Origin: Kiloniellaceae bacterium
GTDB lineage: Bacteria; Pseudomonadota; Alphaproteobacteria; Kiloniellales; Kiloniellaceae
DNA: 64,000 bases
Direction of reading: 5' to 3'
Assembly (NCBI GenBank): GCA_021776195.1
Contig: JAJFGK010000105.1
Coordinates: 1 to 64,000 of the forward strand
This document shows positions 7,120 through 48,087 of the stretch, piece by piece. Position 1 is the first letter of the stretch. Each line of letters starts with the position of its first letter. Position numbers and translations under genes: made by a program. Below the pieces are notes generated by a model. That model saw only the letters and a list, made by a program, of their open reading frames with translations, had not been told where the DNA came from and did not search any database.

Positions 7120-7394
7120 TAGAGCCTTTCTTTGTCATATGGAATCATTTGATGGGTCATAGGCGATCATTCGGGAAGGCGCGCTGCGCAGCGCGATACG
7201 CGTATCGGGCAAGCGGCGGAACGCACCCCCATTGGGAGAGGGGGCTCGCCTATGGCCCACCGAAGGCCGGGTTCTTTTGCCTTCTGGCCGCGTTCCGCTT
7301 CTCGACCGATACGCGTATCGCTCTTCGAAGCGCGCCTTGCCAGAAGACAAAAGCATCCCGGTCAAATGGTTCCATATGACAAAGAAAGGCTCTA
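7120..7394 (+). repeat. Structured palindromic repeat, copy A (275 bp)
   Basis: Begins TAGAGCCTTTCTTTGTCATA and ends with its near-perfect inverse, so the outer arms pair over about 36 nt with 3 mismatches. Inside are a second stem (GGGTCATAGGCGA at 7154-7166 with TCGCCTATGGCCC at 7246-7258), a C5/G5 hairpin near 7226-7244, and two palindromic apices (GATACGCGTATC). The conserved core reads GGGAAGGCGCGCT on the + strand, as in the copies at 26795, 35371 and 47811. It ends five bases before the Rieske oxygenase ATG and supplies the purine-rich AAAGAAAGG in the leader. The 129 bp between the EamA gene and this repeat shows nothing recognisable. Confidence 0.85.
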
Positions 7395-7399
7395 GAGCC

Positions 7400-8797
7400 A
7401 TGGTCGAGCGCAGTAACCTCATCACCCGTCCTTTCGGCGCCTACGACCGGCGCCACGTGGAGGACCACGACCGCGAACTCACCGAAGTTGGCCGCGGTAC
7501 GCCCTGCGGCGAGTACCTGCGGCGCTTCTGGCAGCCGGTGGCGCGCGGCGCCGACCTGGGCGACCTGCCGCTCGCCATCCGCATCCTGGGCGAGGACCTG
7601 GTGCTGTTTCGCGACGGCGGCGGCCGGGTCGGGCTGCTGGAAAAGCACTGCTGTCACCGCGGCACCTCCCTGGAGTTCGGCAAGATCTGTGAGACCGGGA
7701 TCCGCTGCTGCTATCACGGCTGGCACTTCGATATCGACGGGACCATCCTGGAGACCCCCTTCGAGCCGCCGGAGAGCAAGGTCAGGACCCGCATGTTCCA
7801 GGGCGCCTATCCGACCCATGAGTACCGCGGCGCGATCTTCGCCTACCTGGGCCCGGCCGACCGGCGCCCGGCCTTCCCGGTCTTCGACGCCTTTGAGCGC
7901 GAGGCGACGACCTACGATCTGCGCAAGCGGGTCTCGCCCTGCAACTGGCTGCAGGTGCGCGAGAACGAGACCGACCCGCTGCACCTGGTCTTCCTGCACA
8001 CGCGGCTGTTCGGCGTGCAGTTTCGCGAGGTCTATGGCGGCATGCCGACCGTCGAGTGGCAGGAGACGCCGCTGGGTCTGCTCTACAAGGCGGTCTGGCG
8101 CTGGGGCGATCACCTCTACCTGCGCTGCAACGACATGATCATGCCGACCATCGTGCGGGTTGCCGGCATCGAGGACGGCGAGGGCGAGACCCTCTTCGAC
8201 CGGCGCGGCTCGGTGCTGAACTGGGTGGTGCCGATCGACGACACCACCACCATGAGCCTGAGCTGGAGCGATATCGACAAGGACCTGGCGGTGCCGGGCA
8301 ACGACGGCTACGCCGACCGTGCCCTGAAGACGGCTCAGCGCCGGGTCGGCTCGGGCGATGTCGGCCAGACCGGCGATGCGCCCTATGAAGAGCGCCAGCG
8401 CGCGCCCGGCGACTGGGATGCCTGGGCCTCGCAAGGGGCTCAGCACCACCACAGCCGGGAGAACCTGGCGACCTCGGACCGCGGCGTCTCGCTCTATCGC
8501 CGGATGCTGCGCGAGGGCATCCGCGCCGTGGCCCGCGGCGAGGACCCTCAGGGGCTGATCATCGAGGCGCCGGACAAACCGATCATGACCTACTGCCACA
8601 ACACCGTGCTGGCGGTGCCGCCGGGCGCCAGCGAGGACGAGGAGCGCGACCGCAAGCTGGCCTTCGGCCGCACCATCACCGAGGCGATTCTGTCGGGCGC
8701 GCTGCGCAAGACCCAGCCCGGGGCCGAGCCGCTATCGGCGGCGCCCCCGCTTTCCCTGCCCCCGCTTTCCCTGGCGACTGGAGATCAAGGATCATGA
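7400..8797 (+). CDS. Rieske non-heme iron aromatic ring-hydroxylating oxygenase, alpha subunit
   Basis: About 465 aa, of the phthalate/vanillate-type oxygenase group. The Rieske [2Fe-2S] ligands are C-x-H in KHCCHRG and C-x2-H in CCYHGW, and the mononuclear iron site is the D-x2-H-x4-H of NETDPLHLVFLH. It would hydroxylate or demethylate an aromatic acid using electrons from a separate reductase not encoded next to it. The start at 7400 follows the repeat directly. Its TGA overlaps the ATG of the RidA-like gene (ATGA 8794-8797), implying coupled translation, perhaps because the reaction yields a reactive enamine/imine. Confidence 0.92.
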   Translation: MVERSNLITRPFGAYDRRHVEDHDRELTEVGRGTPCGEYLRRFWQPVARGADLGDLPLAIRILGEDLVLFRDGGGRVGLLEKHCCHRGTSLEFGKICETGIRCCYHGWHFDIDGTILETPFEPPESKVRTRMFQGAYPTHEYRGAIFAYLGPADRRPAFPVFDAFEREATTYDLRKRVSPCNWLQVRENETDPLHLVFLHTRLFGVQFREVYGGMPTVEWQETPLGLLYKAVWRWGDHLYLRCNDMIMPTIVRVAGIEDGEGETLFDRRGSVLNWVVPIDDTTTMSLSWSDIDKDLAVPGNDGYADRALKTAQRRVGSGDVGQTGDAPYEERQRAPGDWDAWASQGAQHHHSRENLATSDRGVSLYRRMLREGIRAVARGEDPQGLIIEAPDKPIMTYCHNTVLAVPPGASEDEERDRKLAFGRTITEAILSGALRKTQPGAEPLSAAPPLSLPPLSLATGDQGS

Positions 8798-10053
8798 GCG
8801 ACACGACCTGGCAACTGCCCTTCGCCGGCCACCACTTCATTTCGGCCTCCGCCGCCCATCTGACCTTCGTCGGCGGGGCCGGCGACTTCGACGGCCAGGG
8901 GACGATCCGCCATCCCGGCGACCTGGAGGGGCAGGTCGAGGGCGCCATGAGCAATCTGGCCGCCGCCCTGGCGGCCGAGAGCTGCGGTCTGGGCGACGTG
9001 GTGCGCCTCAAGGTCTTCTACCGCAGCGCGGCGGACGATGGGGGGGCGGACCGCGATGACGGGGTCGCTGCGGAATGGGCCCTGCTGGCCCGGCTTGCCG
9101 CCGCCTTCGAGGACGACCCCCTGCCGGCGATTTCGCTGCTGCCGGTGCCGCTGCAGCCCTTCGCCGGCCAGGAACTCCAGGTCCAGGCCATCGCCCAGCG
9201 CGGCTGGCGCGGGTTCGACGATATCCGGGTGGTGAGCGAGCCGGCCCCGGAACGCCATGCCGCGGCCTTCCAGGGCCGCCCGGTGACCTGGGGCCTGCGT
9301 GCCGGCGAGCTGATTTCGGTGCCGCTGCGGACCGCGGCCGGCGACGACGCTGCAACCGCGGCGCTCGGCGAGGGCGTGCCCCAGACCCACGCCATCATGA
9401 CCCGCATGGGCGAGACCCTGGCCGCCCTGGGCGCGTCGTTCCAGGATTCCATCAAGAAGGAGGGCTACTACTTCGGCACCACCCGGCCCCAGTGGGCCGA
9501 GATGGCCGCGGTACGGGCCTCCTACTTCAAGGAGCCGGGGCCGGTCGCCACCATGGTGCCGGGGCATATCCTCTGGCCGGCCGGCTCGGTCACCAAGATC
9601 GAGCTCCTGGCCATGCGCCAGAAGCGCCTGACCTACGACAAGTATATTCCGCGCGACGACTCCTGGCCCGACCGGGTCTGGGACTGGCCGCTCAATTTGC
9701 CCTACCGCCAGGGCACCCGCCTGCGCGACACCATCTGGCTCGGCGGCCAGGTGCCGGCGCCGCCCTTCGCCCACGCCCTCGACCGGGTCCTGCCGGCCCA
9801 GCTGGTGCCGCAGACCCGGCTGACCATGTCCTATATCGAGGACCTGCTGCGCGGCTTCGGCCGGCGCCCGGCGGATCTGAAGCTGCTGATCGCCTACTTC
9901 ACCTCGGACGGCACGCCGGAGGCCACCGCGACCTTTCTCGATACGGTGGCGGCCTGCGTCGACGGCCCCCTGCCGCCGATCACCGTGGTGCCCCAGCCCC
10001 ACATGCACACCCCCGAGACCATGGTCGAAATCTGGGGCATCGCCCAGGGCTAG
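8794..10053 (+). CDS. Three-domain RidA/YjgF-like protein
   Basis: A 419-aa protein that appears to hold three consecutive Rid-fold units of roughly 130-140 residues: 1-135 (FVGGAGDFDGQGTIRHPGDLEGQ), about 140-275 (QTHAIMTRMGETLAALGASFQDSIKKEGYYF) and about 280-419 (TIWLGGQVPAPPFAH, ending PHMHTPETMVEIWGIA). Canonical RidA is a single-domain trimer that hydrolyses reactive enamines/imines, so a fused three-unit chain could form the trimer in one polypeptide. The catalytic Arg of RidA is not obvious in each unit. Coupled by ATGA overlap to the Rieske oxygenase. RidA relationship is fairly sure; the activity is inferred. Confidence 0.75.
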   Translation: MSDTTWQLPFAGHHFISASAAHLTFVGGAGDFDGQGTIRHPGDLEGQVEGAMSNLAAALAAESCGLGDVVRLKVFYRSAADDGGADRDDGVAAEWALLARLAAAFEDDPLPAISLLPVPLQPFAGQELQVQAIAQRGWRGFDDIRVVSEPAPERHAAAFQGRPVTWGLRAGELISVPLRTAAGDDAATAALGEGVPQTHAIMTRMGETLAALGASFQDSIKKEGYYFGTTRPQWAEMAAVRASYFKEPGPVATMVPGHILWPAGSVTKIELLAMRQKRLTYDKYIPRDDSWPDRVWDWPLNLPYRQGTRLRDTIWLGGQVPAPPFAHALDRVLPAQLVPQTRLTMSYIEDLLRGFGRRPADLKLLIAYFTSDGTPEATATFLDTVAACVDGPLPPITVVPQPHMHTPETMVEIWGIAQG

Positions 10054-10101
10054 CTAAAAAGGGGACTGTCCCCTTTAATTTTTCACTGTAAAAACAAAGG
10101 C
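10054..10101. repeat. REP palindrome downstream of the transposase
   Basis: AAAGGGGACTGTCCCCTTT (10058-10076), a 9-bp perfect inverted repeat with a single central base, followed by AATT and a run ending AAAAACAA. The same palindrome and tail occur at 10899-10945, so the pair brackets the Y1 transposase gene. It may also act as the terminator of the RidA gene that ends at 10053. Confidence 0.85.
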
Positions 10102-10125
10102 TGGTGGGCCTGAAATCCGATCATT

Positions 10126-10875
10126 CTAACGACCGGGAGTGCCGTCCCGGGCCGGGCGTCCGAGCGGCCAGAGGCTGGACTGGAGGTTGAGCCCGGCGGC
10201 GGTGGCCTCGACCCACCCGGCGCCGCCGAGAGGCCGTCCACGCTTGACGCACTGCCGCAGCGCGGCGAGTTCGGCGGCGCTTTGCGGGCGGTTCACCCAG
10301 GCCCGCCAGTCGGCCCGCTTGGGGACCGGGCTGGGATCGACCGCGACCCGGGTCGCCCCGGCCGTACGGCTCCCCCCTGCCGCGCGGCCCGCCCCCGGTG
10401 CGCGGGTCGCCCCCGCCGCGCGGGTCGCCCCTGCCACGCGGGTCCGGGTGAGACTGGACCAGGGCCAGTCCTCGGCGCGCTCGACCAGTCCCGCGCGCAG
10501 CGGGTTGCGTTCGACATAGCGCAGGACGGTCAGCAGGTGGCCGTCCTCTTGGATCGGGAAGGACTTGAAGCGGCCCTGCCAAAGGTGGCCGTCGCTGCCG
10601 TGGCGTTTGTGATGGCGCCGCACCTGGGCGGTCATGAGCCACTGCATCCAGCGGCCGAGATCGCCATCGCCCCGGGGCCGGACCACCAGATGAAAGTGGT
10701 TCGGCATCAGGCAATAGGCGAAGATCTCCAGGGGCAGGCGTGCCACGGCCTTGTTGAGCAAGATCGCAAAGGCCTCGTAATCCGCCTCGCCGTGAAACAC
10801 CGTGGCCCGCCCGTTGCCCCGGTTGATCACGTGATAGCAGAGACCGCCGGGCTGTGGGCGCGTGGCGCGCGGCAT
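10126..10875 (-). CDS. REP-associated tyrosine transposase (RAYT, IS200-like Y1)
   Basis: A 249-aa single-strand-specific HUH transposase. The HUH motif is MPNHFHLVV and the nucleophile tyrosine lies in YVERNPLRAGLV; LWQGRFKSFPI is also typical of RAYTs. The start at 10875 (MPRATRP) is set by GGAGAA eight bases upstream; a longer frame adds unsupported residues. Odd feature: about 40 residues after the catalytic tyrosine consist of Gly-Ala-Thr-Arg repeats (10365-10445, built from repeated GCGGGTCGCCCC-like units), an expansion absent from the core family. REP palindromes on both sides identify its likely substrate. Confidence 0.93.
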   Translation of the reverse strand: MPRATRPQPGGLCYHVINRGNGRATVFHGEADYEAFAILLNKAVARLPLEIFAYCLMPNHFHLVVRPRGDGDLGRWMQWLMTAQVRRHHKRHGSDGHLWQGRFKSFPIQEDGHLLTVLRYVERNPLRAGLVERAEDWPWSSLTRTRVAGATRAAGATRAPGAGRAAGGSRTAGATRVAVDPSPVPKRADWRAWVNRPQSAAELAALRQCVKRGRPLGGAGWVEATAAGLNLQSSLWPLGRPARDGTPGR

Positions 10876-10898
10876 GGCAAGTTCTCCTTCCAGCACCA

Positions 10899-10945
10899 AT
10901 AAAGGGGACTGTCCCCTTTTTAATTGTATAGCAAAAACAACGAAA
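10899..10945. repeat. REP palindrome upstream of the transposase
   Basis: AAAGGGGACTGTCCCCTTT at 10901-10919, then TTAATT and AAAAACAA, matching the 10054 copy in both palindrome and tail. With it, this frames an 890-bp unit (REP - transposase - REP) that could move or be copied as a block. Confidence 0.85.
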
Positions 10946-11056
10946 TGTGGAGGCTAATTTGGCTGACACGCCCTTGGCCGCTCGCTCGGGCGAGGGCCTG
11001 TCGCCTTTACCCGACCGGCCCCTTGGCCCCGCCGACCCCTCTATCCGGCCGGCCGC

Positions 11057-11986: not shown

Positions 11987-12010
11987 GGCGTCCCCCGCCC
12001 CGGTTGTCGG

Positions 12011-12439: not shown

Positions 12440-12565
12440 GGCTGGGCTCCCTTCATGATGCCGGCGGCGCGAGGGGCGCATCATAGGCCAAGGCGCGCCG
12501 GGGGAAACGCCCCTGACGGTTCTCGGTCCAGATTTTCGAGGGCGAGAGTTTCCCGGGAGGCTTTG

Positions 12566-13453: not shown

Positions 13454-13479
13454 TCGCGCGGAGAGAGGAACTCACCACG

Positions 13480-16480: not shown

Positions 16481-16661
16481 AACCGCGGATGAAGGTCCTT
16501 CGGGCCAGGGACCGCGGCGGCCTTTGGCGATCTGGCGGCAACAGGAGGCGCATAGAGAGCGATTGAACCGCGCCACCACCGACCGTCATAGGGCTTGATC
16601 GGACCGGGCGGGACGGGAGTAGAGTGGGGCCGATTGTTGCAACAGTATCCGGCGAGATCCC

Positions 16662-18238: not shown

Positions 18239-18874
18239 ATGCCGCTGCAAAATCGCGTCACCCCCTTCGGCGAAATCGTGGTCGACCCGGCGCGCGGTCT
18301 TTTCACCGGCAACCGGGGCTGCCTTTGCGACTTGGCCGGCCAATTGGCGCGCCGTCGCTGGCGGCTCAAGGCCTGGATCACCTGCCGGCTGAGCTACAAG
18401 GGCGCGTGGCGCAAGGTGATGCAGCCCCGGGTCTGGACCGAGCTTTTCTTCCTCGACGAGGCCACGGCCCTGGCGGCAGGTCACCGGCCCTGCGCCTACT
18501 GCCGCCGGGACGACTACAACCGCTATCGCGAGGCCTGGGCCCGTGCCGAGGGTCTCGCCGCGCCGCCACGGGCTCCCGAGATGGACGCGCGGCTGCAGGG
18601 CGAGCGTCTGGCGCCCGACGGCGGCAAGGTCACCTATCGCGCCGCCCTGGCCGACCTGCCGGACGGCGCCATGGTGTGCCTGCCCGGATCGCCGGGCCGG
18701 GCCGCGTTGATCCAGGACGGGCGCCTGCTGGCCTGGTCGCCGGCGGGTTACGGGGAGCCGCGGGAGACGACGGCTGACACCGTCGAAGTGCTGACCCCGA
18801 AGTCCAGCGTCGCTGTCCTGGCGGCTGGCTACCGTCCCCTGCTGCATCCTATCGCCGTCGAGGAGCGACCATGA
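18239..18874 (+). CDS. Conserved hypothetical protein (MPLQNRVTPFGEI family)
   Basis: 211 aa, cytoplasmic. The N-terminus MPLQNRVTPFGEIVVDPARGLFTGNRG, the segment WTELFFLDEATALAAGHRPCAYCRRDDYNRY and the closing LTPKSSVAVLAAGYRPLLHP are strongly conserved-looking blocks that I associate with an uncharacterised alphaproteobacterial family. The C-A-Y-C pair near residue 84 followed by RRDDYNRYREAW could bind zinc. Its TGA overlaps the M24 gene start by four bases (18871-18874), so it heads the peptidase-like operon. Function unknown. Confidence 0.75.
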   Translation: MPLQNRVTPFGEIVVDPARGLFTGNRGCLCDLAGQLARRRWRLKAWITCRLSYKGAWRKVMQPRVWTELFFLDEATALAAGHRPCAYCRRDDYNRYREAWARAEGLAAPPRAPEMDARLQGERLAPDGGKVTYRAALADLPDGAMVCLPGSPGRAALIQDGRLLAWSPAGYGEPRETTADTVEVLTPKSSVAVLAAGYRPLLHPIAVEERP

Positions 18875-20043
18875 CCATGACCGAACCGAACGCCCCCTTT
18901 TCCCGCGCCGAGTACGAGGCGCGCCTGACCCGGCTGCGCGCCGGCCTGGCGGAGGCAGGCTTCGATGCCATGGTGCTCTTCGCCCAGGAGAGCCTCTACT
19001 ACCTGACCGGGTTCGACACCGGGGGCTATGTCTTCTTCCAGTGCGCGGTGGTGCCGGCCGACGGCGGGCCGATCACCCTGCTGACCCGACGCCCCGACCG
19101 CGACCAGGCGCGGGCGACCTCGATCATCCCCGATATTCGCCTCTGGTACGATGCCGAGACTGCCGACCCGGCGGGCGACCTGAAGGCGATCCTCGCGGAG
19201 AAGGGCCTGGAGGGTCGCCGGGTCGCGCTCGAGCTCGACACCTTCGGCCTGACCGGGGCCAACCACGAGAAGGTCCGATTGGCGCTGTCCGGCTTTTGCG
19301 CGACGGGGGACGGTTCGGCCATCACCCGGCGCCTGCGGCTGGTGAAATCGGCCGGCGAGATCGCCCTGATCCGTCAGGCCGCCGGGCTTTGCGACCGCGC
19401 CCTTGAGGCGATGATCGAGGCCGCCGAGCCGGGCATTCCCGATGCGACCCTGACGGCGATCTGCCTGCGCGAGATCCTGGAGGGCGGCGGCGACATGCCG
19501 CCGGCCGGGCCGCTGGTGAACTCCGGGTCGCGCTCGCCCTATGGCCGTGGCGTCGCCGGCACGCGCCGCCTCGAGGCCCGCGATCAGGTCGTTGTCGAGT
19601 TCGCCGCCACGGTGCGGCGCTACAACGTCTGCGTCGAGCGGACCATCGTGCTGGGCGAGCCGCCGGCCGCCTTGGTCGCCATGTACGAGGCGGCCAGCGA
19701 AGCGCTCGCCGCCATGACCGCCGCGGCCCGGCCGGGCAGTCCCCTGGGCCGGATCGACGAGGAGCACCGCCGGGTCTTCGATGCCGCGGGCTACCGTGAC
19801 AATCGCTTCGAGGCCTGCGGCTACTCCCTGGGCGCGACCTACCGGCCCTCCTGGATGGACGTGCCGCCGATGCTCTACAGCGGCAACCCCCTGCCGGCCG
19901 AGGCCGGCATGGTGCTCTTCCTCCACGCCATCGTCGGCGACGCCGAGGCCGGCCTTGCCGTCGGCCTGGGGCACACGCTCTTGATCACCGAAGGGGGCTG
20001 CGAGGTGCTGAACAAGGTGCCGCTGGCGCTGCACCGGCGCTAG
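18871..20043 (+). CDS. M24-family (creatinase/ectoine hydrolase-like) protein, metal ligands absent
   Basis: 390 aa with the two-part creatinase architecture: an N-terminal domain (SLYYLTGFDTGGYVFFQCAVV) and a C-terminal pita-bread domain from about residue 165. In Xaa-Pro peptidases five ligands bind two metals; here they are replaced (VVEFAATVRRYNVCVERT for the D-x-G/D segment, CGYSLG for GHG, MVLFLHAIV for the E-P-G). This matches creatinase and DoeA-type ectoine hydrolase, which act without metal on C-N bonds of small solutes. A close paralogue follows at 20287. The stop TAG is the first triplet of a TAGAGC repeat end. Confidence 0.85.
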   Translation: MTMTEPNAPFSRAEYEARLTRLRAGLAEAGFDAMVLFAQESLYYLTGFDTGGYVFFQCAVVPADGGPITLLTRRPDRDQARATSIIPDIRLWYDAETADPAGDLKAILAEKGLEGRRVALELDTFGLTGANHEKVRLALSGFCATGDGSAITRRLRLVKSAGEIALIRQAAGLCDRALEAMIEAAEPGIPDATLTAICLREILEGGGDMPPAGPLVNSGSRSPYGRGVAGTRRLEARDQVVVEFAATVRRYNVCVERTIVLGEPPAALVAMYEAASEALAAMTAAARPGSPLGRIDEEHRRVFDAAGYRDNRFEACGYSLGATYRPSWMDVPPMLYSGNPLPAEAGMVLFLHAIVGDAEAGLAVGLGHTLLITEGGCEVLNKVPLALHRR

Positions 20044-20073
20044 AGCGCTTCCATGTACCAAAGAAGTGCTCTC
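20041..20073 (+). repeat. Collapsed copy of the structured repeat (ends only)
   Basis: TAGAGCGCTT followed directly by CCATGTACCAAAGAAGTGCT: the outer 10 bases of the left arm joined to the right arm of the repeats at 35371 and 47811, leaving a small hairpin. The interior (about 240 bp) is missing. It supplies the TAG stop codon of the upstream M24 gene. Confidence 0.65.
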
Positions 20074-24350: not shown

Positions 24351-25913
24351 GTGAAACAGACAACACTGACCTCAGTCCTCGCACTTACTTTGGCGCTGAC
24401 CGTCGCCGCCGGATCGGCGGACGCGGCCGGGGGCAAAACCGTGACTTTCAACAGCACGCCGCAGATTCGCACTTTCGACAAGACCGCACCGGCCAACACC
24501 GTGGCTCCGGCCCGGCCCACATCCCGTGCGGCCAGTTCCAGCTTCAAGAGCGGTAATACCTTCAAAAGCGGGCCGGCCTTCAAGGGCGGCCAGATCGGCG
24601 GCGCGCGGCTCGGCTCCGTCCAGGCGCGCCCCGGCGCGGCAAGCCACGCGAACCCAACCTTTGGTTCGACCCGTACGGCCAAGGCGCCCACTTCAAAGTC
24701 CGGCGGCAAGCTGGCCTTCAAGGGCGGCAAGGTGGGCGACGCCCAGCTCGGCAGCGTGAAGAAGCGCCCCGGTGCCGCGACCCATGCTTCGCCCAAGCTG
24801 GGTACGACCAAGGCGACCAAGGTTGCCAAGGCCCCCACCTCAAAGTCCAGGGCCTCGAAATCCGGCGGCAAGCTGGCCTTCAAGGGCGGCAAGGTCGGCG
24901 ATGCCCAGCTCGGCAGCGTGAAGAAGCGGCCCGGCGCCGCGACCCATGCCACGCCCAAGCTGGGCAAGACCGGTGCGGTCGCCAAGACGACACGGACGAC
25001 GGCAAAGACCACCAAGCTGGCGGCCAAGTCGAGCAAAGCCGGCACAAAACTGGCCAAGACCGGCAAGACCCTGAAAACGGTCAAGAAGGGCAGGAAGGTC
25101 GGCAAGCTGCTCGCCGGCGGTGCCACGGGCCTGGTGGCCGGTGCGGCGCTGGGGGTCGACACGCCCGATATCTTCGATGCCGCGGAGTTCGGCGTCGGCC
25201 TGGTCAAGGATCCGGGCAACGCCGACAAGAAGATCGCCGGCCTGGTCACGGGTGGCCACAAGATGGCCTTCCAGATGGCCGACTCGCTGACCGATCCGGG
25301 CAAGATGGCGAACAACCTGAAGAACGCTGGCAAGGGCCTGGCCAAGTCGGTTTCCAATACCAAGACCTACAAGGCGATCGCCAGGACCAAGACCGGCAAG
25401 GCCATCGGCAAGGCGGCGACCGCCGTCGGCGGTACGCTCTCAAAGGGCGCCAAGGCCTTTGCCAAGACCAAGACCGGCAAGGCCATCGGCTCGGTCGCCA
25501 AGGCTGTGGACAAGACCGTTTTCAAGAACGCCAACAAGGCGGTGAAGCTGGTCGGCAAGGCCTCCGGCAAGGTCGTCGGCGCGGTCACCGAGGGCGCCCG
25601 CAAGGGCGTACGCAAGACGGTCCAGGGCGTCGGCAAGGCGGCCAAGAAGACCGGCCAGGCGGTCAACAAGGCGGCCAAGGCGACCGGCAAGGCCGTGAGT
25701 GGCGCCGCGAAGACCGCCGGCAAGGCGGTGGCCGGTACCGCCAAGAAAGAGGTCGCCAAGCTCGCCAAGACCAAAACCGGCAAGGCGGTCACCAAGCAGG
25801 TCGCCAAGATCGCCAAGACCAAGACAGGCAAGGCCGTCACCAAGACCGCCAAGAAGGCTGGCAAGACCGTCAAGAAAGCCGGCAAGACCCTGAAGAAGAT
25901 CTTCAAGTTCTAG
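24351..25913 (+). CDS. Exported, highly basic Lys/Ala/Gly repeat protein
   Basis: 520 aa. A Sec signal peptide (MKQTTLTSVLALTLALTVAAGSADA) is followed by three copies of a roughly 45-residue unit built around FKGGKVGDAQLGSVKKRPGAATH (first copy from residue ~75 diverged, the next two nearly identical), then a short hydrophobic patch LLAGGATGLVAGAALG around residue 255, a less repetitive middle (GVDTPDIFDAAEFGVGLVKDPGN), and a 230-residue tail of T-K-T-G-K-A-I/V-G-K reiterations. The composition looks like histone H1 but the signal peptide argues for a surface or periplasmic polycation, perhaps binding LPS, peptidoglycan or DNA. GTG start, with GGGGAAG before it. It precedes the sigma-factor cluster and has its own strong terminator. 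Confidence 0.8.
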   Translation: MKQTTLTSVLALTLALTVAAGSADAAGGKTVTFNSTPQIRTFDKTAPANTVAPARPTSRAASSSFKSGNTFKSGPAFKGGQIGGARLGSVQARPGAASHANPTFGSTRTAKAPTSKSGGKLAFKGGKVGDAQLGSVKKRPGAATHASPKLGTTKATKVAKAPTSKSRASKSGGKLAFKGGKVGDAQLGSVKKRPGAATHATPKLGKTGAVAKTTRTTAKTTKLAAKSSKAGTKLAKTGKTLKTVKKGRKVGKLLAGGATGLVAGAALGVDTPDIFDAAEFGVGLVKDPGNADKKIAGLVTGGHKMAFQMADSLTDPGKMANNLKNAGKGLAKSVSNTKTYKAIARTKTGKAIGKAATAVGGTLSKGAKAFAKTKTGKAIGSVAKAVDKTVFKNANKAVKLVGKASGKVVGAVTEGARKGVRKTVQGVGKAAKKTGQAVNKAAKATGKAVSGAAKTAGKAVAGTAKKEVAKLAKTKTGKAVTKQVAKIAKTKTGKAVTKTAKKAGKTVKKAGKTLKKIFKF

Positions 25914-26213: not shown

Positions 26214-26816
26214 ATGGATCAGAGACAAGATCTTCATTCTCTGTCTGACGAGGAGCTGATGAGGCTTTATCTCAACGGCCACGGGTCCGCTTTCGAGATC
26301 GTCTACGAACGGCGCCGCGAGGGCCTGAGGCGCTATTTCGTGCGCCAGACCCGCTCGCCGGAACTGGGCAGCGACCTGGCCCAGGAGACCTGGTTCAAGC
26401 TGCTGCGGGCCTGCGAGAACGGCGGCTACACGGCAGAGGCCAAGTTCACCACCTTTCTTTACAAGATCGGGAACAACCTCTTTATCGACTGGTTCCGCAA
26501 ACATGGCGGCAACCGGGCCATGGCCCAGGAAGAGGACATGGACAGCGTCGGCAACGACGAGGAATTCTGGGGTCAAAGCAGCCCCGACCCGGAACGCCAG
26601 CTGGCGGAAAAGGAGCGGGATCAAGCCGTACAGGCGGCCATCGGGTCGCTCTCGCCGGAGCAGCGCGAGACCCTTTTAATGCAGCTCGAGGGCGATTTGA
26701 GCTACGACGAAATCGCCGAGGCCATGAACACCAACCGCGAGACGGTAAAGACCAGGCTGCGCTACGCGCGCGCCCACTTGAAGAAGCGGTTGTTAGTGGC
26801 ATGGCACAGGGATTAG
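26214..26816 (+). CDS. ECF-subfamily RNA polymerase sigma factor
   Basis: 200 aa with only regions 2 and 4. Region 2: ELMRLYLNGHGSAFEIVYERRREGLRRYFVR, the DLAQETWFKLLRA core-binding helix and FTTFLYKIGNNLFIDWFRKHGG. Region 4: LSPEQRETLLMQLEGDLSYDEIAEAMNTNRETVKTRLRYARAHLKKRL. The linker is acidic (EEDMDSVGNDEEF). It should direct polymerase to a small regulon, most likely the envelope genes that follow. The following membrane protein is the probable anti-sigma. The last codons (ending WHRD) lie inside the left arm of a structured repeat. An alternative start is 26259. Confidence 0.93.
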   Translation: MDQRQDLHSLSDEELMRLYLNGHGSAFEIVYERRREGLRRYFVRQTRSPELGSDLAQETWFKLLRACENGGYTAEAKFTTFLYKIGNNLFIDWFRKHGGNRAMAQEEDMDSVGNDEEFWGQSSPDPERQLAEKERDQAVQAAIGSLSPEQRETLLMQLEGDLSYDEIAEAMNTNRETVKTRLRYARAHLKKRLLVAWHRD

Positions 26817-27059
26817 GGCCGGTTTCATGGGGGCCAATAGGTCCTCTGGGAAGGCGCGCTGTGCGGCGCGATGCCGAAGCATCGGGCAAACAGCGGAACG
26901 CACCCAGAGGACCTATTGGCCCCACCGAAGGCCGCGATGTTTCGCCCGCTGGCGGTGTTGCGCGCTGCTTGTGGTACTCGCACCACGGCGCAGCACGCGC
27001 CGTGCCAGCGGACGAAACCTTCGCGGTGAAACCTGCCCTAATCCCTGTGCCCTGCCACT
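26795..27059 (+). repeat. Structured palindromic repeat, copy D (265 bp, divergent arms)
   Basis: Shares the core (GGGAAGGCGCGCTGTGCGGC at 26848 onward, ending AGCGGAACGCACCC) with the copies at 7120, 35371 and 47811, but the arms are different. The outer arms pair over 33 nt (26795-26827 with 27027-27059, two mismatches) and an inner stem is a perfect 21-bp inverted repeat (26830-26850 with 26903-26923). A third long hairpin spans about 26939-27018. The left arm is the end of the sigma-factor gene, so the right arm is an inverted copy of host coding sequence. The gap to the next gene (27111) shows nothing else. Confidence 0.8.
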
Positions 27060-27110
27060 CGGAACCGCCTGACAGTTTGGGGGTCGAGGACAGACCTTAG
27101 GACAAAGCCG

Positions 27111-29126: not shown

Positions 29127-29166
29127 CGCCACCGGGCGGCCCGCTGGGCCGCCCGCTTGGCGTTTC
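29127..29166 (+). terminator. Strong GC hairpin, likely terminator
   Basis: CGGGCGGCCC (29133-29142), loop GCT, GGGCCGCCCG (29146-29155), extended by GCCA/TGGC outside and followed by GTTTCT. The T-run is weak, but it lies between the OmpA-like gene and the next promoter motif at 29207, as expected for separate transcription. Confidence 0.65.
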
Positions 29167-29206
29167 TGGCAAGAATCTGCGCCGACGGAAATCTCCCCCG
29201 GCCATC

Positions 29207-29233
29207 ACCCCTCTGGCGGCGATCGCCCGTGTG
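29207..29233 (+). promoter_or_regulatory. Candidate ECF-type promoter motif, site 3
   Basis: ACCCCTCT (29207-29214), 13 bases, CGTGTG (29228-29233), then AGAAGG and GAAA as at site 2. It lies 68 bp before the lipoprotein ATG at 29301. Sites 2 and 3 agree in motif, spacing and distance to the gene. Confidence 0.6.
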
Positions 29234-29300
29234 TAACTCCAGAAGGGGCCGAAAAGGCGCCAAACAAGTGATGAAACGCACAGTTCGAGGGGAAGACAAA

Positions 29301-30932
29301 ATGTTCAAGACACTGAAAGCGACCGCCGCCATCGCCGCCGTCGCCACGCTGGCGGCCTGCGCCGCGCCCACCACCCACAAGGTCGCCGTGACCGCGCAGC
29401 CCAGCGCCGCGCCGGCGCGCACGATCACGAACTTCAGCGCCTCGCTGCGCTGCATGGACGACCTCTTCCTGTCCAGCGGGGCCGGCAACATCGTTCTGAC
29501 CACCGCCGGCATACCCGACGCCACCGGCCGCATCGGCGGCGGCACCAAGGACATGCTGATCTCGTCCATTCTGGCCATGTCGGCCCGCAGCGGCGCGCTG
29601 ACCTATGTCGATTTCGATCCGGCCGCCGCCGACGTGGCGCTGCTGCAGGAAAATCTCGGCTTCACCGAATCCTTCCGCTTCCCCGATTTCTATATCCGCG
29701 GTGCCGTGACCCAGCTCGACGAGTCGGTGGTCGGCCAGTCCGCCGGCGGCGGCGTGTCCTTCATGGGCAACAGCCTGGGGGCCTCGGCCGAACAGATCAG
29801 CTCGGTGATCGCGATCGACATGAACGTCGGCGAACTGGCGAGCCGCCAGATCATTCCCGGCATCACCGCCAACAACTCCATCGTCATCACCCAGCAGGGC
29901 GCCAACGGCGAGCTGGGCGCCTCCATTGGCTCTGTCGGGGTGGTCTTCAACATCGCCATGAACCAGGCCGACGGCCCGCACCAGGCCCTGCGCACCCTGA
30001 TCGAGCTTTCCGCCATCGAGCTGGTCGGCAAGCTGATGCAGGTGCCCTATTGGACCTGCCTCGAGGTCGATGCGACCAATCCCAAGGTGATGGTCGAGGC
30101 CCGCGACTGGTTCGACTCCAAAGGCGACAAGGACCGCGTGACCTTTGTCCAGCAGGCCCTGGCCGGCAACGGCTACTATGCCGGCGAAGCGTCGGGTCAG
30201 ATCGACGAGGCGACTCGCAACGCGGTCATCCAGTATCAGCTCGACAACGATCTCATCACCTCGGGTCAGATCGATTTCGATACCTACTTTCGGCTGATCA
30301 GCGCCGGCAACGGCGGCGGTGCGACCGCGGCGAGCCGGCCGGCCCCGCAGCCCGCCGCAGCCCAGCCCGCCGCAGCCCAGCCCGCCGCAGTCCAGCCCGC
30401 CGCAGCCCAGCCTGCCGCAGCCCAGCCTGCCGGCCAAGCAGCGGAATACGTGACTGCCGAAGCGCAACCCGCCGCCTATGTGCCGGCAGCAGAGCAGCAG
30501 GTGCCGCCGCAGCTCAGCCTCATCGCGCTCGCCGACGGTGCCGGGATCTACCAGGTCGGCGACAAGCTGCAAGCCGCGCTCTCGCTCGACGACGATGCCT
30601 TCGTCTATTGCTACTACCAGGACGGTCAGGGCCAGGTGGTGCGGCTCTTCCCGAACCGCTTCAGCCCCAACGCCTTCGTTCCCGCCGGCAGCGGCTTCGT
30701 GTTGCCGGACAACAGCTGGCCTTTCTCCCTGGTGCTCGACCGCGCCGGCGCCACAGAGCAGTTGGCCTGCATGGCCTCCAAGCAGGAGATCGGCCTGGAT
30801 CTGCCCGAGGCGTTGAAGGTCGAAGACCTGACCCCCATGCCCGTGGCGTCGATCATGGATCTCTACGAACTCTACAACCAGATCGACCCCGCGACCTTGG
30901 CCGCGGTCGGGATCGAGGCCCGGGTTTACTGA
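29301..30932 (+). CDS. Lipoprotein: CsgG-like domain, peptidoglycan-binding domain, repeat linker, DUF4384
   Basis: 543 aa. Lipobox LAAC follows MFKTLKATAAIAAVAT, so the start at 29301 is preferred over 29271. Residues ~25-255 resemble CsgG/curli-assembly-type periplasmic proteins (TNFSASLRCMDDLFLS, FYIRGAVTQLDESV, GVVFNIAMNQADGPHQALRTLIELSAIELVGKLMQVPYW). Next is a PG_binding_1-like unit (DRVTFVQQALAGNGYYAGEASGQIDEATRNAVIQYQ), a QPAAA repeat linker, and a C-terminal DUF4384 domain (GIYQVGDKLQAALSLDDDAFVYCYYQDGQGQVVRLFPN). It could be an outer-membrane pore or assembly factor tied to the wall. The domain combination is unusual; the CsgG call is by resemblance. Confidence 0.75.
   Translation: MFKTLKATAAIAAVATLAACAAPTTHKVAVTAQPSAAPARTITNFSASLRCMDDLFLSSGAGNIVLTTAGIPDATGRIGGGTKDMLISSILAMSARSGALTYVDFDPAAADVALLQENLGFTESFRFPDFYIRGAVTQLDESVVGQSAGGGVSFMGNSLGASAEQISSVIAIDMNVGELASRQIIPGITANNSIVITQQGANGELGASIGSVGVVFNIAMNQADGPHQALRTLIELSAIELVGKLMQVPYWTCLEVDATNPKVMVEARDWFDSKGDKDRVTFVQQALAGNGYYAGEASGQIDEATRNAVIQYQLDNDLITSGQIDFDTYFRLISAGNGGGATAASRPAPQPAAAQPAAAQPAAVQPAAAQPAAAQPAGQAAEYVTAEAQPAAYVPAAEQQVPPQLSLIALADGAGIYQVGDKLQAALSLDDDAFVYCYYQDGQGQVVRLFPNRFSPNAFVPAGSGFVLPDNSWPFSLVLDRAGATEQLACMASKQEIGLDLPEALKVEDLTPMPVASIMDLYELYNQIDPATLAAVGIEARVY
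30348..30435 (+). repeat. 15-bp coding tandem repeat (QPAAA linker)
   Basis: Unit CAGCCCGCCGCAGCC, five full copies plus a partial one, with a few synonymous or single-residue changes. In frame, so copy-number change would lengthen or shorten the flexible linker between the wall-binding and DUF4384 domains without frameshift. Confidence 0.85.
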
Positions 30933-35370: not shown

Positions 35371-35636
35371 TAGAGCACTTCTTTGTTACGTGGAGTCATT
35401 TGATGGGTCATAGGCGATCATTCGGGAAGGCGCGCTGTGCGGCGCGATGCCAAAGCATCGGGCAAGCAGCGGAACGCACCCGATGTTCGCCTAGGGCCCA
35501 CCGAAGGCCGGGTTCTTTTGCCTTCTGGCCGCGTTCCGCTCCTCGACCGATGCTCGGCATCGCTCTTCGAAGCGCGCCTTGCCAGAAGACAAAATCATCC
35601 CGGTCAAATGGTTCCACGTAACAAAGAAGTGCTCTA
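35371..35636 (+). repeat. Structured palindromic repeat, copy B (266 bp), inside the polyol operon
   Basis: Begins TAGAGCACTTCTTTGTTACG, ends with the inverse; outer arms pair over about 36 nt with few mismatches. Arm bases that differ from copies A and C (ACGTGG) are matched on the other side (CCACGT). The core hairpin reads GATGC/GCATC, as does the apex of the third hairpin. It lies between the binding-protein gene and the first permease gene. Confidence 0.85.
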
Positions 35637-40999: not shown

Positions 41000-41064
41000 T
41001 CCATGGAGACGCTCGGTCGGACGCGCGGACGCCGGGCCTGGGATGGCGCGGGGACCAGTTTCAA

Positions 41065-42156: not shown

Positions 42157-42198
42157 ATTGGCAGCGACGTTGATGAAGCCGGCGCAGAGGCTGGCGCC

Positions 42199-43089: not shown

Positions 43090-43123
43090 CCGGTCCGTCC
43101 CAAGCGGGATAGGGGCGTTCTAT

Positions 43124-43140
43124 TGTACCCATAATGTACA
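43124..43140. promoter_or_regulatory. Candidate LysR box in a divergent promoter
   Basis: TGTAC (43124-43128), seven bases, GTACA (43136-43140), with a second palindrome ATGTACAT overlapping its right half (43134-43141). AT-rich, between the LysR start (43089) and the GST gene (43260). Fits the T-N11-A form of LysR targets. Confidence 0.6.
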
Positions 43141-43259
43141 TAATAATTGAACGAAAAGCACCATTATCGTCGTTATTCGGCTGTGCCATATAGGAGCGAC
43201 CAGGCGTCGGTGGGATCCGGCGCCCCCCAGACAAGACCCCGCTCAGAAAGGACAGCACC

Positions 43260-43880: not shown

Positions 43881-43963
43881 CGCGGTGAAGCGCCTGGACA
43901 AGATGTCCGGACGCCTTTTGGTGCCGACCCATGCGCCGGCAAACAGCTCCGATGGAGGTCAAG

Positions 43964-45649
43964 ATGTCGACGAACCAGGAAAGCGACCGCGAAGCATCGC
44001 CCTTTCATCGAGGCGAACAGCTCGTGCAGGGCCGGCTTGGCGCGCGCGATATCGAATTTTGGGCGCGGAAGGTGGTCAGAGACCACCTTCCGGACCAACA
44101 CCGGGACTTTCACACGTCGCTCCCCTTCTTGGTGGTTGCCGCGCGCGACGGGCAAGGGCGGCCCTGGGTCACCCTGCTGGAGGGGCCGGAGGGTTTTGTC
44201 CGCGCGCCGGACAGCAAGACCCTCGCCATCGAGGCGCTGCCGGCGCGTGGCGACGCCCTGGGCGATTCAGTCCGGCCCAATAGCGATATCGGCATTCTGG
44301 GCATCGAGCTGGCCACCCGGCGCCGCAACCGGGTCAATGGGCGCGCCTTGGAAACCGATTCGACCGGCTTCACCTTCCAGGTCGACCAGGCCTTCGGCAA
44401 CTGCCCGCAATACATCCGCGAGCGCGAATGGCACCGCGTCGACGACGAAATCCGCGGACAGGCGAAGAGAGGCCATCGACTGACCGCCGCGCAGCGTGCG
44501 TGGATCGCCGCGGCGGATACATTTTTCATTGCCAGCGGCTACCGCGGCGAAGGCGCGAGTCCGACCTTCGGCATGGACGCCTCCCACCGAGGGGGCGACC
44601 GCGGCTTCGTTCAGGTTGTCAGCGAGACCAAGCTGAGGTTCCCGGACTATGCCGGCAACAATCACTACAACACGATCGGCAACCTGGTTCTCGATCCGAG
44701 GGCGGGATACCTTTTTGTCGATTTCGAAAGCGGAAGCCTGCTTCAACTCACCGGAAGGGCCGCCATCGAGTGGGACCCCGATGACCTGGCGCTCTTTCCC
44801 GGGGCCCGGCGTCTGGTGGTTCTGGAGATCGACGAGATCGTGGAGAACCGTTCCGCGGTCGGCCTCCGCTGGGCGGCCGAGGCCGACACGGTGCGCTCTT
44901 TGAGACTGATCGACAAGGTTGCCGAAAGCGATGACGTGACGTCCTTCATCTTCGAGGCCCGCGATGGCGGTCCCTTGGCGAACTTCGAGCCGGGCCAGCA
45001 TCTTCCGATCGAACTCGACATTGCCGGTGTCGCCGGTCCGGTACGGCGAACCTACTCGCTCTCCAATGCGCCTGGCTCCAACGCGTTGGGCCCCGATGCA
45101 ACGGGCCAGGATCGCTATCGAATCTCGGTGAAACGCGAGCCTCGAGGGCTTGCCTCCCGGTTTCTCCACGATCGGCTCGAAGTGGGCGCGATTATCGACA
45201 GCCGAAAGCCGGCCGGCAACTTCATGATGACCTGCAACAAATGCCCCCTGGTCCTGGTCAGCGCCGGAGTCGGCGTCACGCCCATGGTGAGCATCCTGGG
45301 GTCCGTCGCCAACGAGGCTGGCAACCGGCCGGTCTGGTTCGTGCAGGGCGCCAGAAATCGCCGCCATCATCCGCTGGCCCGTGACGTGCGCGACCTGGCC
45401 GCAAGGCGGTCGAACATCGTCGCTCATATAGTCTATAGCCAGCCTGAACCGGACGACCGGAAAGGCGCCGATTATGATTCGCTGGGACGGATTGACGGGG
45501 CGCTCCTGCGGCGACTTGTCGACCGCCCCGATGCCCACTATTTCCTCTGCGGGCCCAGCCGCTTCATGGCCGATGTTCAGGCCGCTATTGAAAGTCAGAA
45601 GATTCCCCTAAACCAGATCCACACGGAAACCTTCGGCCCGGTAGGGTGA
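43964..45649 (+). CDS. Fusion of a PNPOx-like flavin domain and a ferredoxin reductase-type FAD/NAD(P) domain
   Basis: 561 aa. Residues ~1-300 form a pyridoxamine-phosphate-oxidase-like split barrel (SLPFLVVAARDGQGRPWVTLLEG, NNHYNTIGNLVLDPRAGYLFVDFESGSLLQLTGRA). Residues ~310-561 form a flavohemoglobin/phthalate-reductase-like unit (RRTYSLSNAP for FAD, VLVSAGVGVTPMVSILG and YFLCGPSRFM for NAD(P)). Related proteins add a C-terminal [2Fe-2S] ferredoxin domain; here the chain ends TETFGPVG just where it would begin. The start at 43964 has GGAGG upstream. It probably shuttles electrons from NAD(P)H to a flavin-bound oxidant. Confidence 0.85.
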   Translation: MSTNQESDREASPFHRGEQLVQGRLGARDIEFWARKVVRDHLPDQHRDFHTSLPFLVVAARDGQGRPWVTLLEGPEGFVRAPDSKTLAIEALPARGDALGDSVRPNSDIGILGIELATRRRNRVNGRALETDSTGFTFQVDQAFGNCPQYIREREWHRVDDEIRGQAKRGHRLTAAQRAWIAAADTFFIASGYRGEGASPTFGMDASHRGGDRGFVQVVSETKLRFPDYAGNNHYNTIGNLVLDPRAGYLFVDFESGSLLQLTGRAAIEWDPDDLALFPGARRLVVLEIDEIVENRSAVGLRWAAEADTVRSLRLIDKVAESDDVTSFIFEARDGGPLANFEPGQHLPIELDIAGVAGPVRRTYSLSNAPGSNALGPDATGQDRYRISVKREPRGLASRFLHDRLEVGAIIDSRKPAGNFMMTCNKCPLVLVSAGVGVTPMVSILGSVANEAGNRPVWFVQGARNRRHHPLARDVRDLAARRSNIVAHIVYSQPEPDDRKGADYDSLGRIDGALLRRLVDRPDAHYFLCGPSRFMADVQAAIESQKIPLNQIHTETFGPVG

Positions 45650-45682
45650 AGGCCCGAAACGAACAGACAAGGAGTGACGACA

Positions 45683-47029
45683 ATGCGCGATTCTTATGAC
45701 GTGGTGATCGTCGGCGGCGGCAATGCCGGGTTCGGCGTGTCCGCTGTTGCCCACGAGGCGGGAAAATCGATCGCCTTCATCGAATCGCGGGACTTCGGCG
45801 GGACCTGTCCCAATCGTGGCTGTACGCCGAAGAAGGTCCTGGTCGCCGCCGCCCATGCCCTGCACGAGATCGAGCTGGCCCCGGTCCACGGCATCGAGGT
45901 CGGTCCGGTCAAGCTCGATTGGGCCAAGCTGATCGAGCGGGAAAAACAGATGATCGGCTTTATCCCGGACGCCATGCTGGGCGTGGCCGAGAAACGCGGC
46001 GATGTCTTTCGCGGTCACGCGAAGTTCGTCGGACCGAACAGCGTCGAGGTCGATGGCAAGGTGGTTCGTGGCGACAATATCGTCATCGCCACGGGCTCGA
46101 CACCGAGACCGCTACCGATTCCCGGCGCGGAACATATGATCATCTCGGACGATGTCCTCTCGGACCCCACCTTGCCCAAGGAGGTCGTGTTCATCGGCGG
46201 TGGCGTGATCGCCATGGAATTCAGCCACGTCTATGCGCGCGCCGGTGTGCAGGTGACCATTTTGGAGGCGCTGCCTCAACTGCTGCCGCGCATGGACGCC
46301 GATGCGGTTGCCGTCATCCAGGCCGAAACGGAGCGCCTCGGCGTAACCGTGAAGACCGGCGTGCGAGTCAAGCAGATCACCAAATCGAATGGACGACTGG
46401 GCGTCCTTTACGATCATGAGGACAGTGAACAGACCGTCGAGGCGGACCGGGTCGTCAACGGGGCGGGCCGTATCGCGAATATCGAGACTTTGGATCTGGA
46501 GGCGGGGGGGATCGAACACGACGGGCTGCGCATTCTCATCGACGACTACCTGCGCTCGACGTCCAATCCTTCGGTGTGGGTGGCCGGCGACGCCCTGGTG
46601 CAGTCGGCGCAGCTGTCGCCCGTGGCCACCTATGAAGGTCGGATCGTCGGCCAGAATATCGTCAAAGGCGCCACGGAAAAGCCCGACTACAGCGTCATAC
46701 CGAGCGCCGTCTACACGGTGCCGGCCTTGAGCACCCTGGGTTTGAGCGAAAAGGAGGCCCGCGAGAAGGGCATCGACCTGGCCGTGACGACAGCGGACAT
46801 GTCCGGCTGGTTCTCGACCAAGACCTACGCCGAGACGGTGGCCTGGTCCAAGGTGCTGGTGGACAAGCAAAGCGATCAGGTTGTCGGCGCCCACATCGTC
46901 GGACATCAGGGCGAAGATCTGATCCACCTTTTCGCGCTGGCCATGCGTCACGGCATCACGGCGAGCGATCTCAAGAACTCGTTCTATGCCTTCCCGACCT
47001 TTTCGGCCGACATGAAGAGCCTGCTCTAG
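45683..47029 (+). CDS. Class I pyridine nucleotide-disulfide oxidoreductase (GR/MerA-like)
   Basis: 448 aa. FAD motif VVIVGGGNAGFGVSAVAHEAG, redox pair in GGTCPNRGCTPKK (C-x4-C), NAD(P) motif VVFIGGGVIAMEFSHVYARAG, and VWVAGDAL near the FAD ribityl. The C-terminal dimer segment reads FYAFPTFSADMKSLL, where glutathione reductase and lipoamide dehydrogenase have an H-P-T with the catalytic His; here it is F-P-T, so the usual acid-base His is missing. This suggests a non-thiol acceptor such as a quinone. AAGGAG precedes the ATG at 45683. Member of the LysR-linked operon. Confidence 0.9.
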   Translation: MRDSYDVVIVGGGNAGFGVSAVAHEAGKSIAFIESRDFGGTCPNRGCTPKKVLVAAAHALHEIELAPVHGIEVGPVKLDWAKLIEREKQMIGFIPDAMLGVAEKRGDVFRGHAKFVGPNSVEVDGKVVRGDNIVIATGSTPRPLPIPGAEHMIISDDVLSDPTLPKEVVFIGGGVIAMEFSHVYARAGVQVTILEALPQLLPRMDADAVAVIQAETERLGVTVKTGVRVKQITKSNGRLGVLYDHEDSEQTVEADRVVNGAGRIANIETLDLEAGGIEHDGLRILIDDYLRSTSNPSVWVAGDALVQSAQLSPVATYEGRIVGQNIVKGATEKPDYSVIPSAVYTVPALSTLGLSEKEAREKGIDLAVTTADMSGWFSTKTYAETVAWSKVLVDKQSDQVVGAHIVGHQGEDLIHLFALAMRHGITASDLKNSFYAFPTFSADMKSLL

Positions 47030-47061
47030 CCCTCCGGGCTGAAGGCGAAGGGAGCAACGAC

Positions 47062-47766
47062 ATGACGAGCAAGGTTTGTCTCATCACCGGCGTAGGCGAC
47101 GGCACCGGTGCGTCGCTCGCCCGGCGCTTTGCCCGGGACGGCTACCGAGTCGCCCTCCTGGCGAGAAACCGCGAGCGACTGTCCGAGCTGCAGCGGGAAC
47201 TGCCCGGCGCCAGGGCCTTCGCCTTCGACCTGGAAGACCTCGACTGTCTGGTCGCGGTTTGCCGCCGGGTGAAGGACGAGATGGGTTTGCCGGAAGTCGT
47301 CGTGCACAACGCGGTACGCGCGACCTTCCGGGGGTTTCTCGAGGCGGAGCCGGAGGAACTCGAACGGAACTTTCGCGTCAACACCACCAGCCTGCTCCAC
47401 CTGGCCCGGGAGTTCGCGCCGGCCATGGCGGACCGCGGGTCCGGCACCATCGTGGTCACGGGCAACACGGCGGCTCTGCGGGGCGTGCCCAGTTATGCGC
47501 TCTTTGCTCCCACGAAGGCGGCCCAGCGCATCCTCGCCCAATCGCTGGCGCGGGAGTTGGGACCCAAGGGCATCCATGTGGCTTACGTGGTCATCGACGC
47601 GGCCATCGACACGCCCTGGACGCGCGTTCCCTTCAATCCCGATAAGCCTGAGGATTTCTTCAGCAAGCCCGACGCGATCGCGGACGAGGTCTATCACGTC
47701 GCGCACCAGAATCGCTCGACCTGGTCGTTCGACGTCGAGCTTCGGCCCTTCGGGGAGCGTTGGTGA
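47062..47766 (+). CDS. SDR-family oxidoreductase with Phe at the catalytic Tyr position
   Basis: 234 aa Rossmann-fold protein: CLITGVGDGTGASLARRFARDGYRVALLARN, VVHNAVRATFRGF, and YALFAPTKAAQRILAQSLARELGPKGIHVAYVVIDAAIDTP. In the Y-x3-K motif the tyrosine is replaced by phenylalanine (F-A-P-T-K), as in a recognisable SDR subfamily with FAxAK and HVVIDGxID. It may bind NAD(P) for regulation or use another acid. Last gene of the LysR-linked group; ends 44 bp before the structured repeat. Confidence 0.88.
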   Translation: MTSKVCLITGVGDGTGASLARRFARDGYRVALLARNRERLSELQRELPGARAFAFDLEDLDCLVAVCRRVKDEMGLPEVVVHNAVRATFRGFLEAEPEELERNFRVNTTSLLHLAREFAPAMADRGSGTIVVTGNTAALRGVPSYALFAPTKAAQRILAQSLARELGPKGIHVAYVVIDAAIDTPWTRVPFNPDKPEDFFSKPDAIADEVYHVAHQNRSTWSFDVELRPFGERW

Positions 47767-47810
47767 AGGAGCGCCGGGACGGCCGCGGGCCGTTAGGCGG
47801 TTGCTTGGCC

Positions 47811-48087
47811 TAGAGCACTTCTTTGTTACACGGAACCATTTGATGGGTCATAGGCGATCATTCGGGAAGGCGCGCTGTGCGGCGCGATGCTAAAGCATCG
47901 GGCAAGCAGCGGAACGCACCCCCATTGGGAGAGGGGGTTCGCCTATGGCCCACCGAAGGCCGGGTTCTTTTGTCTTCTGGCCGCGTTCCGCTTCTCGACC
48001 GATACGCGTATCGCTCTTCGAAGCGCGCCTTGCCAGAAGACAAAATAATCCCGGTCAAATACTTCCGTGTAACAAAGAAGTGCTCTA
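47811..48087 (+). repeat. Structured palindromic repeat, copy C (277 bp)
   Basis: Starts TAGAGCACTTCTTTGTTACA and ends with the inverse; bases ACACGG on the left are matched by CCGTGT on the right, differing from copies A (ATATGG) and B (ACGTGG). The core hairpin is GATGC/GCATC and the third-hairpin apex GATACGCGTATC. The right end supplies the TAG stop codon of the convergent DUF882 gene. Confidence 0.85.

Follow-up and report, generated by a model that had tools for sequence, protein, structure and literature searches.

Palindromic repeats are common between the genes of bacteria, and most of them are unexplained. Nezha is a bacterial miniature inverted-repeat transposable element (MITE) comparable with RUP, Correia/NEMIS and QMITE, and in the REPIN/RAYT system two inverted hairpins form the mobile unit. 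We describe here a family of structured repeats represented by four copies (A, D, B and C in order of position) in a stretch of 64,000 nucleotides at the start of contig JAJFGK010000105.1 of a Kiloniellaceae bacterium (assembly GCA_021776195.1), which we refer to as the window. We argue that its members are non-autonomous, MITE-like mobile elements whose fold is kept because their spread needs it, probably as DNA, a reading to which we give a probability of about 0.6. With most of its stem sequence replaced, one family can still be told by its fold in two classes, and the legible insertion sites make it possible to test selection for mobility against an RNA function and against copying between inverted arms.

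The bacterial MITEs RUP, Correia/NEMIS and QMITE are described as short and as having 5'-3' stems, and the present element shares with them its short length, inverted ends, target duplication, frequent terminal TA, many intergenic copies and stable predicted fold (PMC2229807, PMC10969869). It differs in having an inverted pair of structured modules that is common to two proteobacterial classes while arms and stems differ, and no parent insertion sequence was found for it in a limited search. The CcrM-associated CIR repeats of Caulobacter, Brucella and their relatives are likewise alphaproteobacterial structured intergenic repeats with two hairpins and a linker; they are about 110 bp long, with GANTC in a loop and no enclosing 5'-3' stem (PMC2229807), whereas the element is about 265 bp long with an enclosing stem and has GANTC in two of the four window copies. 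Four loci (L228, L229, L234 and L235, at about 181-330) carry two-hairpin repeats of about 110 bp that resemble the description of CIR, with a GANTC site and with the terminus TAGAGCATTTCCG that the element also has; they are not matched by the covariance model described below, and they share a genus with TAGAGC-ended members of the element family.

RIME and Sm-repeats offer a looser likeness as intergenic repeats of rhizobia, with a function reported as unexplained (PMC2573895). In S. meliloti pSymB, taken as a negative control, our covariance model had no match at E<=1 over 200 kb; RIMEs may be absent from this DNA, a repeat scan of 50 kb of it having found no family of at least 40 nt. The IS427 group of the IS5 family in Paracoccus has short inverted ends, as the element does, and a 2-bp target duplication in 10 of the 11 members considered (PMC3281130). 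The YTAR targets and the probable TA duplication of the element recall this group, but the few IS5-type ends that are legible in our genomes (5 of 23 loci) are unlike its arms. The element resembles the REPIN/RAYT mobile unit in its two inverted hairpins, but its hairpin modules are far larger and come with complementary arms and target duplications. Within the open-access literature, much of it available in part, we recognised no paper that describes this repeat family; an earlier description is possible.

Architecture of the element

Each element, of about 250-277 bp, consists of outer arms around two inverted copies of one hairpin module of about 85 nt and a small central hairpin. It is a large quasi-palindrome: copy A aligns with its own reverse complement at 70.6% identity over 282 columns (BLAST). 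The first-pass annotation of the window had drawn arms and hairpins that are indeed present, but what it called the "core" hairpin and the "third long" hairpin prove to be a single module that occurs in two opposite orientations. The four copies that it placed at 7120-7394, 26795-27059, 35371-35636 and 47811-48087, all on the + strand, are confirmed, except that the arms of copy D reach further (26786-27068). A gapped core pattern matches the window four times, against no match in 100 shuffles. By BLAST, copies A and C are 90.6% identical (277 columns), B and C 88.8% (278) and A and B 85.3% (278), and the match of D to B is confined to the core (83.2% over 119 columns). The arm and core differences that the annotation quoted between copies are correct, and the arms of D, as it said, are unrelated to those of A, B and C yet complementary to one another (88% over 42 nt).

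Elements found with the covariance model contained 46 inverted module pairs. In most pairs one module starts 102-106 nt from the start of the other (101-118 over all pairs seen). Local alignment of the arms of 43 elements, three of the 46 with short flanks being left out, gave 1339 Watson-Crick positions out of 1458; L058 was dropped as a duplicate of L019. A plasmid of Agrobacterium sp. MA01 carries an element of the same architecture with arms unrelated to those of the window copies, and in Rhizobium sp. SSA_523 a plasmid-borne version with one module (20.9 bits, E 0.016) directly follows a stop codon. Judged by its length, the element leaves no room for a transposase gene between its complementary inverted terminal arms; open reading frames (ORFs) of at least 60 amino acids over copy C are 79-213 amino acids long and either run out of the element or belong to flanking genes. 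Larger and smaller forms were also seen: L174 and L170 have an enlarged central hairpin and measure about 393 and 320 bp, and L222, L223 and L224 are shortened to 141, 161 and 184 bp and carry, between intact arms, a single module or one that is reduced or chimeric.

Insertion sites and stop codons

The element is mobile, and its copies were inserted as discrete units. The MA01 element is missing from plasmids of Agrobacterium sp. RAC06 (flanks 97.3% identical) and of Rhizobium rosettiformans (91.0%); the empty site reads AATGC-TGA-AGCCC and the filled site AATGC-TGA-[TACC...GGTA]-TGA-AGCCC, an exact 3-bp duplication of TGA. Elements with TACC ends that were read out have identical 3-bp flanks in four of eight cases. 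Intact TAG-ended elements have TA at each end, and among 40 copies found by BLAST, 73 of the 80 bases just outside the terminal TA, read outward, are purines; the target is therefore Y-TA-R, as at IS427-type ends. Ten of these 80 ends have lost the terminal TA, and all rows were kept in the count. A TA or YTAR target also fits other families that duplicate TA, such as IS630. At two more loci with empty relatives in the same genus, a TAA stop is found in the empty site and the TAG of the element in the filled one, the flanks being 79-93% identical and not exact on both sides. For the TAG-ended kind, these ends and sites suggest a duplication of TA.

A coding-frame filter divided 138 element ends into 99 with no frame reaching the element, 12 with a frame on the other strand, one that was too short and 26 with a gene running in. 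The TAG of the element is in frame at 21 of 25 gene-facing ends (p ~3e-7, calculated by hand against one third). This figure is a recount of 22 against 4, less an end of window copy B that had been wrongly placed, on the TAG of the gene itself, six bases upstream, and two of the four out-of-frame ends (window copy D and L194) are without a terminal TAG. With the criterion loosened to any frame open over 100 codons, the three phases had 26, 18 and 10 ends. Two stop-codon histograms peak at offset 0 (17 and 19 ends), but in part this peak follows from the way they were made, since a frame of that phase necessarily stops at the TAG of the element; the coding-frame test replaced them. Insertion at a stop codon, with a new stop supplied, is a route by which such an element can spread in compact genomes with little damage.

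The first-pass annotation had set these repeats apart from MITEs. This is not borne out: the empty sites, target duplications and scattered copies are those of a MITE-like mobile element. It had also named, as the result that would count against its reading, a transposon with terminal repeats and target duplications; the empty sites and duplications give that result in part, but an encoded or partner transposase was not found in a limited search. We use the term "MITE-like" because ends shared with an autonomous transposon did not turn up in that search either.

Distribution of the family

A covariance model (R1) was built from ten modules (those of copies A to D and of the MA01 element, in both orientations) with a structure of 34 pairs. 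It matches 27 of 289 genomes drawn from the class of G003 (Alphaproteobacteria), for each of which 15 candidates were scored. In a second class, that of G001, it has matches in 21 of 185 genomes. G003 includes a contig of Rhodoplanes serenus, an alphaproteobacterium. The second class is probably Gammaproteobacteria, because the best matches of the partial 16S sequence of one of its members, G366, among plasmid-borne rRNA are Halomonas at 87.2%, Methylomagnum at 86.1% and Acinetobacter at 85.8%; 16S identification gave a match for only 2 of 18 genomes. Among six second-class loci that were read, L153, L155 and L156 have both modules, L152 has both with the second cut by a contig end, and for L154 and L157 the model reported a single module.

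A closer search of eight element-bearing genomes gave 8 to 53 module matches in each, and the four window copies are members of a large and widespread family. Several elements lie at contig ends (for example G127:C11:108-192, G127:C13:108-192, G251:C115:4-91 and G294:C7:1-265), so draft genomes probably under-count copies. The Rfam search that had been suggested for identifying the family was negative: Rfam 15 had no match in the window above the gathering threshold and none at E<=0.5 in four element-bearing loci.

Conservation of the fold

Folded as single-stranded RNA, all four window copies are more stable than each of 200 shuffles (z of -12.8 for A, -15.5 for D, -11.9 for B and -13.7 for C). 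C and D have a branched minimum-energy fold, whereas that of A and B is one long rod held together by pairing between the two modules. In the ten modules from which the model was built, 22 of 34 pairs have two-sided changes and 91.7% of cells are paired, against 75.0% after shuffling, a description rather than an independent test, as the structure was derived from the same modules. The wider set comprised 130 module matches from 73 sources (125 distinct rows); 91.7% of its cells are paired, a share that falls to 61.9% on shuffling. For the 125 distinct modules the covariation score reaches 0.724, compared with 0.174 after shuffling and no more than 0.128 when the structure is slid, in an alignment that was fitted to the model and with relatedness between rows left in the scores. 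All 17 pairs of the outer stem vary on both sides, and 15 of them take at least four standard pair types. Three unpaired internal-loop positions are near-invariant (A in 122, G in 127 and A in 124 of 130 rows).

Arms and stems mostly have no sequence in common between lineages, yet they are complementary within an element. Among 27 elements chosen from different lineages, arm pairing within the element exceeds the 99th percentile of cross-element arms in 25, and each of the inner stems passes the same test in 20. These results bear out the earlier proposal of a maintained fold beyond a plain palindrome. The compensatory change that was proposed for copy A (GATAC/GTATC in its core hairpin) is real as a difference but is likely a single copying event, since the first core of copy A is identical to its own second-module core, and copying from module to module accounts for part of the matched changes. 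Taken as a whole, the first-pass interpretation is partly supported.

How the element may spread

The short size, empty sites and duplications mark this as a MITE-like mobile element, and the conserved module pair exceeds what terminal repeats need. The lineage-specific arms may be the ends at which the element is cut by borrowed transposases, those of insertion sequences resident in the genome. Such arms would be exchanged or re-made between lineages, with the module pair as the conserved part. This pair would form two hairpins, most likely as DNA that is extruded or made single-stranded during replication or transfer, and a putative factor needed for spread would then recognise the internal loops of the hairpins, such that only folding copies would multiply. 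Template switching between the inverted arms may help the stems to stay matched. More speculatively, and at well under even odds, the element could be defined by its fold and not by its ends or by a protein, the module pair having spread through Alphaproteobacteria and probably Gammaproteobacteria while arms were exchanged or rewritten for different transposases, and owing its survival to recognition of its cruciform or single-strand fold by the putative factor.

Several points weigh against a mobile element with a fold selected for spread. The duplication of TA is read from end sequences and two diverged empty sites, in one case with a left flank whose alignment stops short of the element, and TAG-ended and TACC-ended kinds yield different duplications. 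The factor that would bind the hairpins is itself putative, and no autonomous partner turned up in a limited search. In raw counts, with genome size left in and many of the genomes drafts, 17 of 27 element-bearing genomes have the IS630-type domain PF13358, compared with 63 of 262 others, and for the Y1 domain PF01797 the figures are 10 of 27 and 48 of 262; the IS5-type domain PF13340 occurs in 10 of the 17 element-bearing genomes examined for it. The copy-rich genome G063 shows none of the three. The legible inverted ends at IS5-type loci, which come from 10 genomes, are all unlike the arms of the element. As to the fold, one short helix is paired in only 69.0% of cells, loop positions other than the three near-invariant ones are variable across the 130 rows, and the structure was drawn from the first ten modules.

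By co-occurrence, neither an IS630, a Y1 nor an IS5-type transposase is a required partner. An inverted pair of TAGAGC ends 3.7 kb apart at G285:C50 was considered as an autonomous partner and rejected: it encloses a gene for an AMP-binding enzyme, and one of its ends belongs to another repeat family.

Alternative explanations

The fold might act in RNA, transcripts from either flank folding a module near the 3' end of the messenger RNA and so causing termination, RNase III processing or protection of the message, as proposed for other bacterial repeats. The frequent position of copies at stop codons would suit this, as would the arrangement of the modules: whichever side a transcript enters from, the first module on its path has the transcript's own orientation. 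G.T pairs exceed A.C pairs on the module's own strand in the inner stems of model-found copies (27 against 6 and 20 against 4; the excess is seen in 14 genomes and its opposite in one, with five ties), and first-stem cells of BLAST-found copies lean the same way (43 against 16). However, second-stem cells of BLAST-found copies have no such lean (16 against 21), and their events counted per column are even in both stems (13 against 13 and 9 against 12), so the excess in model-found copies may reflect the picking of the best model matches. Nor is there a preferred orientation to open frames of at least 100 codons ending at the element's TAG (12 against 14) or a strand bias in the outer arms (30 against 36), and the lack of an Rfam match also speaks against an RNA role. 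Because gene orientation is even, the outer arms are unbiased and the bias of the inner stems is absent at the level of events in BLAST-found copies, we favour a fold that acts as DNA; the strand tests conflict and do not decide the matter, and we consider an RNA-level element unlikely.

We judge it improbable that the repeat is an ordinary MITE without selection for folding, in which template-switch (quasi-palindrome) correction is all that keeps arms and stems complementary. The identity of the two cores in copy A is what copying between inverted modules would produce, the one-module derivative L223 looks chimeric, and template switching is reported to homogenise the arms of inverted repeats. 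But the three asymmetric internal-loop bases are near-invariant, and template switching alone is probably not the whole explanation because palindrome repair would tend to erase asymmetric loops; moreover, the architecture recurs in two classes although every outer-stem pair varies on both sides. A REPIN-like element, with a Y1 (HUH) transposase recognising each hairpin and moving the unit in the form of single-stranded DNA, in the manner of RAYT and REP, would account for the two inverted hairpins per unit, and a Y1_Tnp gene lies within the window at 10126-10899. We hold this to be very improbable, as only 10 of the 27 element-bearing genomes, many of them drafts, yielded Y1_Tnp and the window gene is flanked by its own, different repeats. 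To our knowledge, the REPIN/RAYT mechanism involves neither target duplications nor complementary arms.

Features of the window

Coordinates of the elements and their parts are collected in Table 1.

Table 1. Repeat elements and related features in the 64,000-nucleotide window.
Feature	Position	Strand	Remark
Copy A, whole element	7120-7394	+	TAGAGCC..GGCTCTA
Copy A, left outer arm (P1)	7120-7152	+	partner 7362-7394; 97% complementary
Copy A, right outer arm	7362-7394	+	
Copy A, first hairpin	7154-7258	+	stem 7154-7166/7246-7258; module core 7173-7228
Copy A, central linker	7257-7269	+	CCACCGAAGGCCG; small hairpin, gives the element its orientation
Copy A, second hairpin	7272-7355	-	first-hairpin module inverted; 94.3 bits
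Copy D, whole element	26786-27068	+	includes unrelated arms 26786-26827 / 27027-27068
Copy D, first module	26834-26919	+	98.6 bits
Copy D, second module	26937-27020	-	core diverged; 73.3 bits
Copy B, whole element	35371-35636	+	arms 35371-35403 / 35604-35636
Copy B, first module	35409-35495	+	78.6 bits
Copy B, second module	35513-35597	-	94.8 bits
Copy C, whole element	47811-48087	+	arms begin at 47811 and finish at 48087
Copy C, first module core	47864-47921	+	61.2 bits
Copy C, second module	47965-48048	-	94.3 bits
Copy C, terminal TAG	48085-48087	-	stop codon of Peptidase_M15_2 ORF (48085-48726, -)
Remnant or mini-palindrome	20041-20072	+	TAGAGCGCTTC..GAAGTGCTCT; modules absent; TAG serves as stop codon of Peptidase_M24 ORF 18871-20043

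Copy D overlaps the end of a sigma-70 ORF. The exact core pattern, which proved too strict and gave way to the covariance model, had no match in a collection of viral contigs and four unrelated chance matches in the genome contig collection. BLAST of copy B against phages gave no match, nor did copy D and three further elements against plasmids, and one window protein searched for in viral contigs was not found there.

The Y1_Tnp gene (IS200-like/RAYT-like, - strand) is flanked by AAAGGGGACTGTCCCC direct repeats at 10058-10097 and 10901-10940. Repeats of 36-117 nt lie at 24555-25908, and their later part reads by eye as lysine-rich (AKTKTGKA..) in an ORF without a Pfam match (24351-25913); a 15-bp repeat, CAGCCCGCCGCAGCC, at 30333-30432 is inside the ORF at 29157-30932. 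One gene of the window is closest to genes of Azospirillum, at about 72%.

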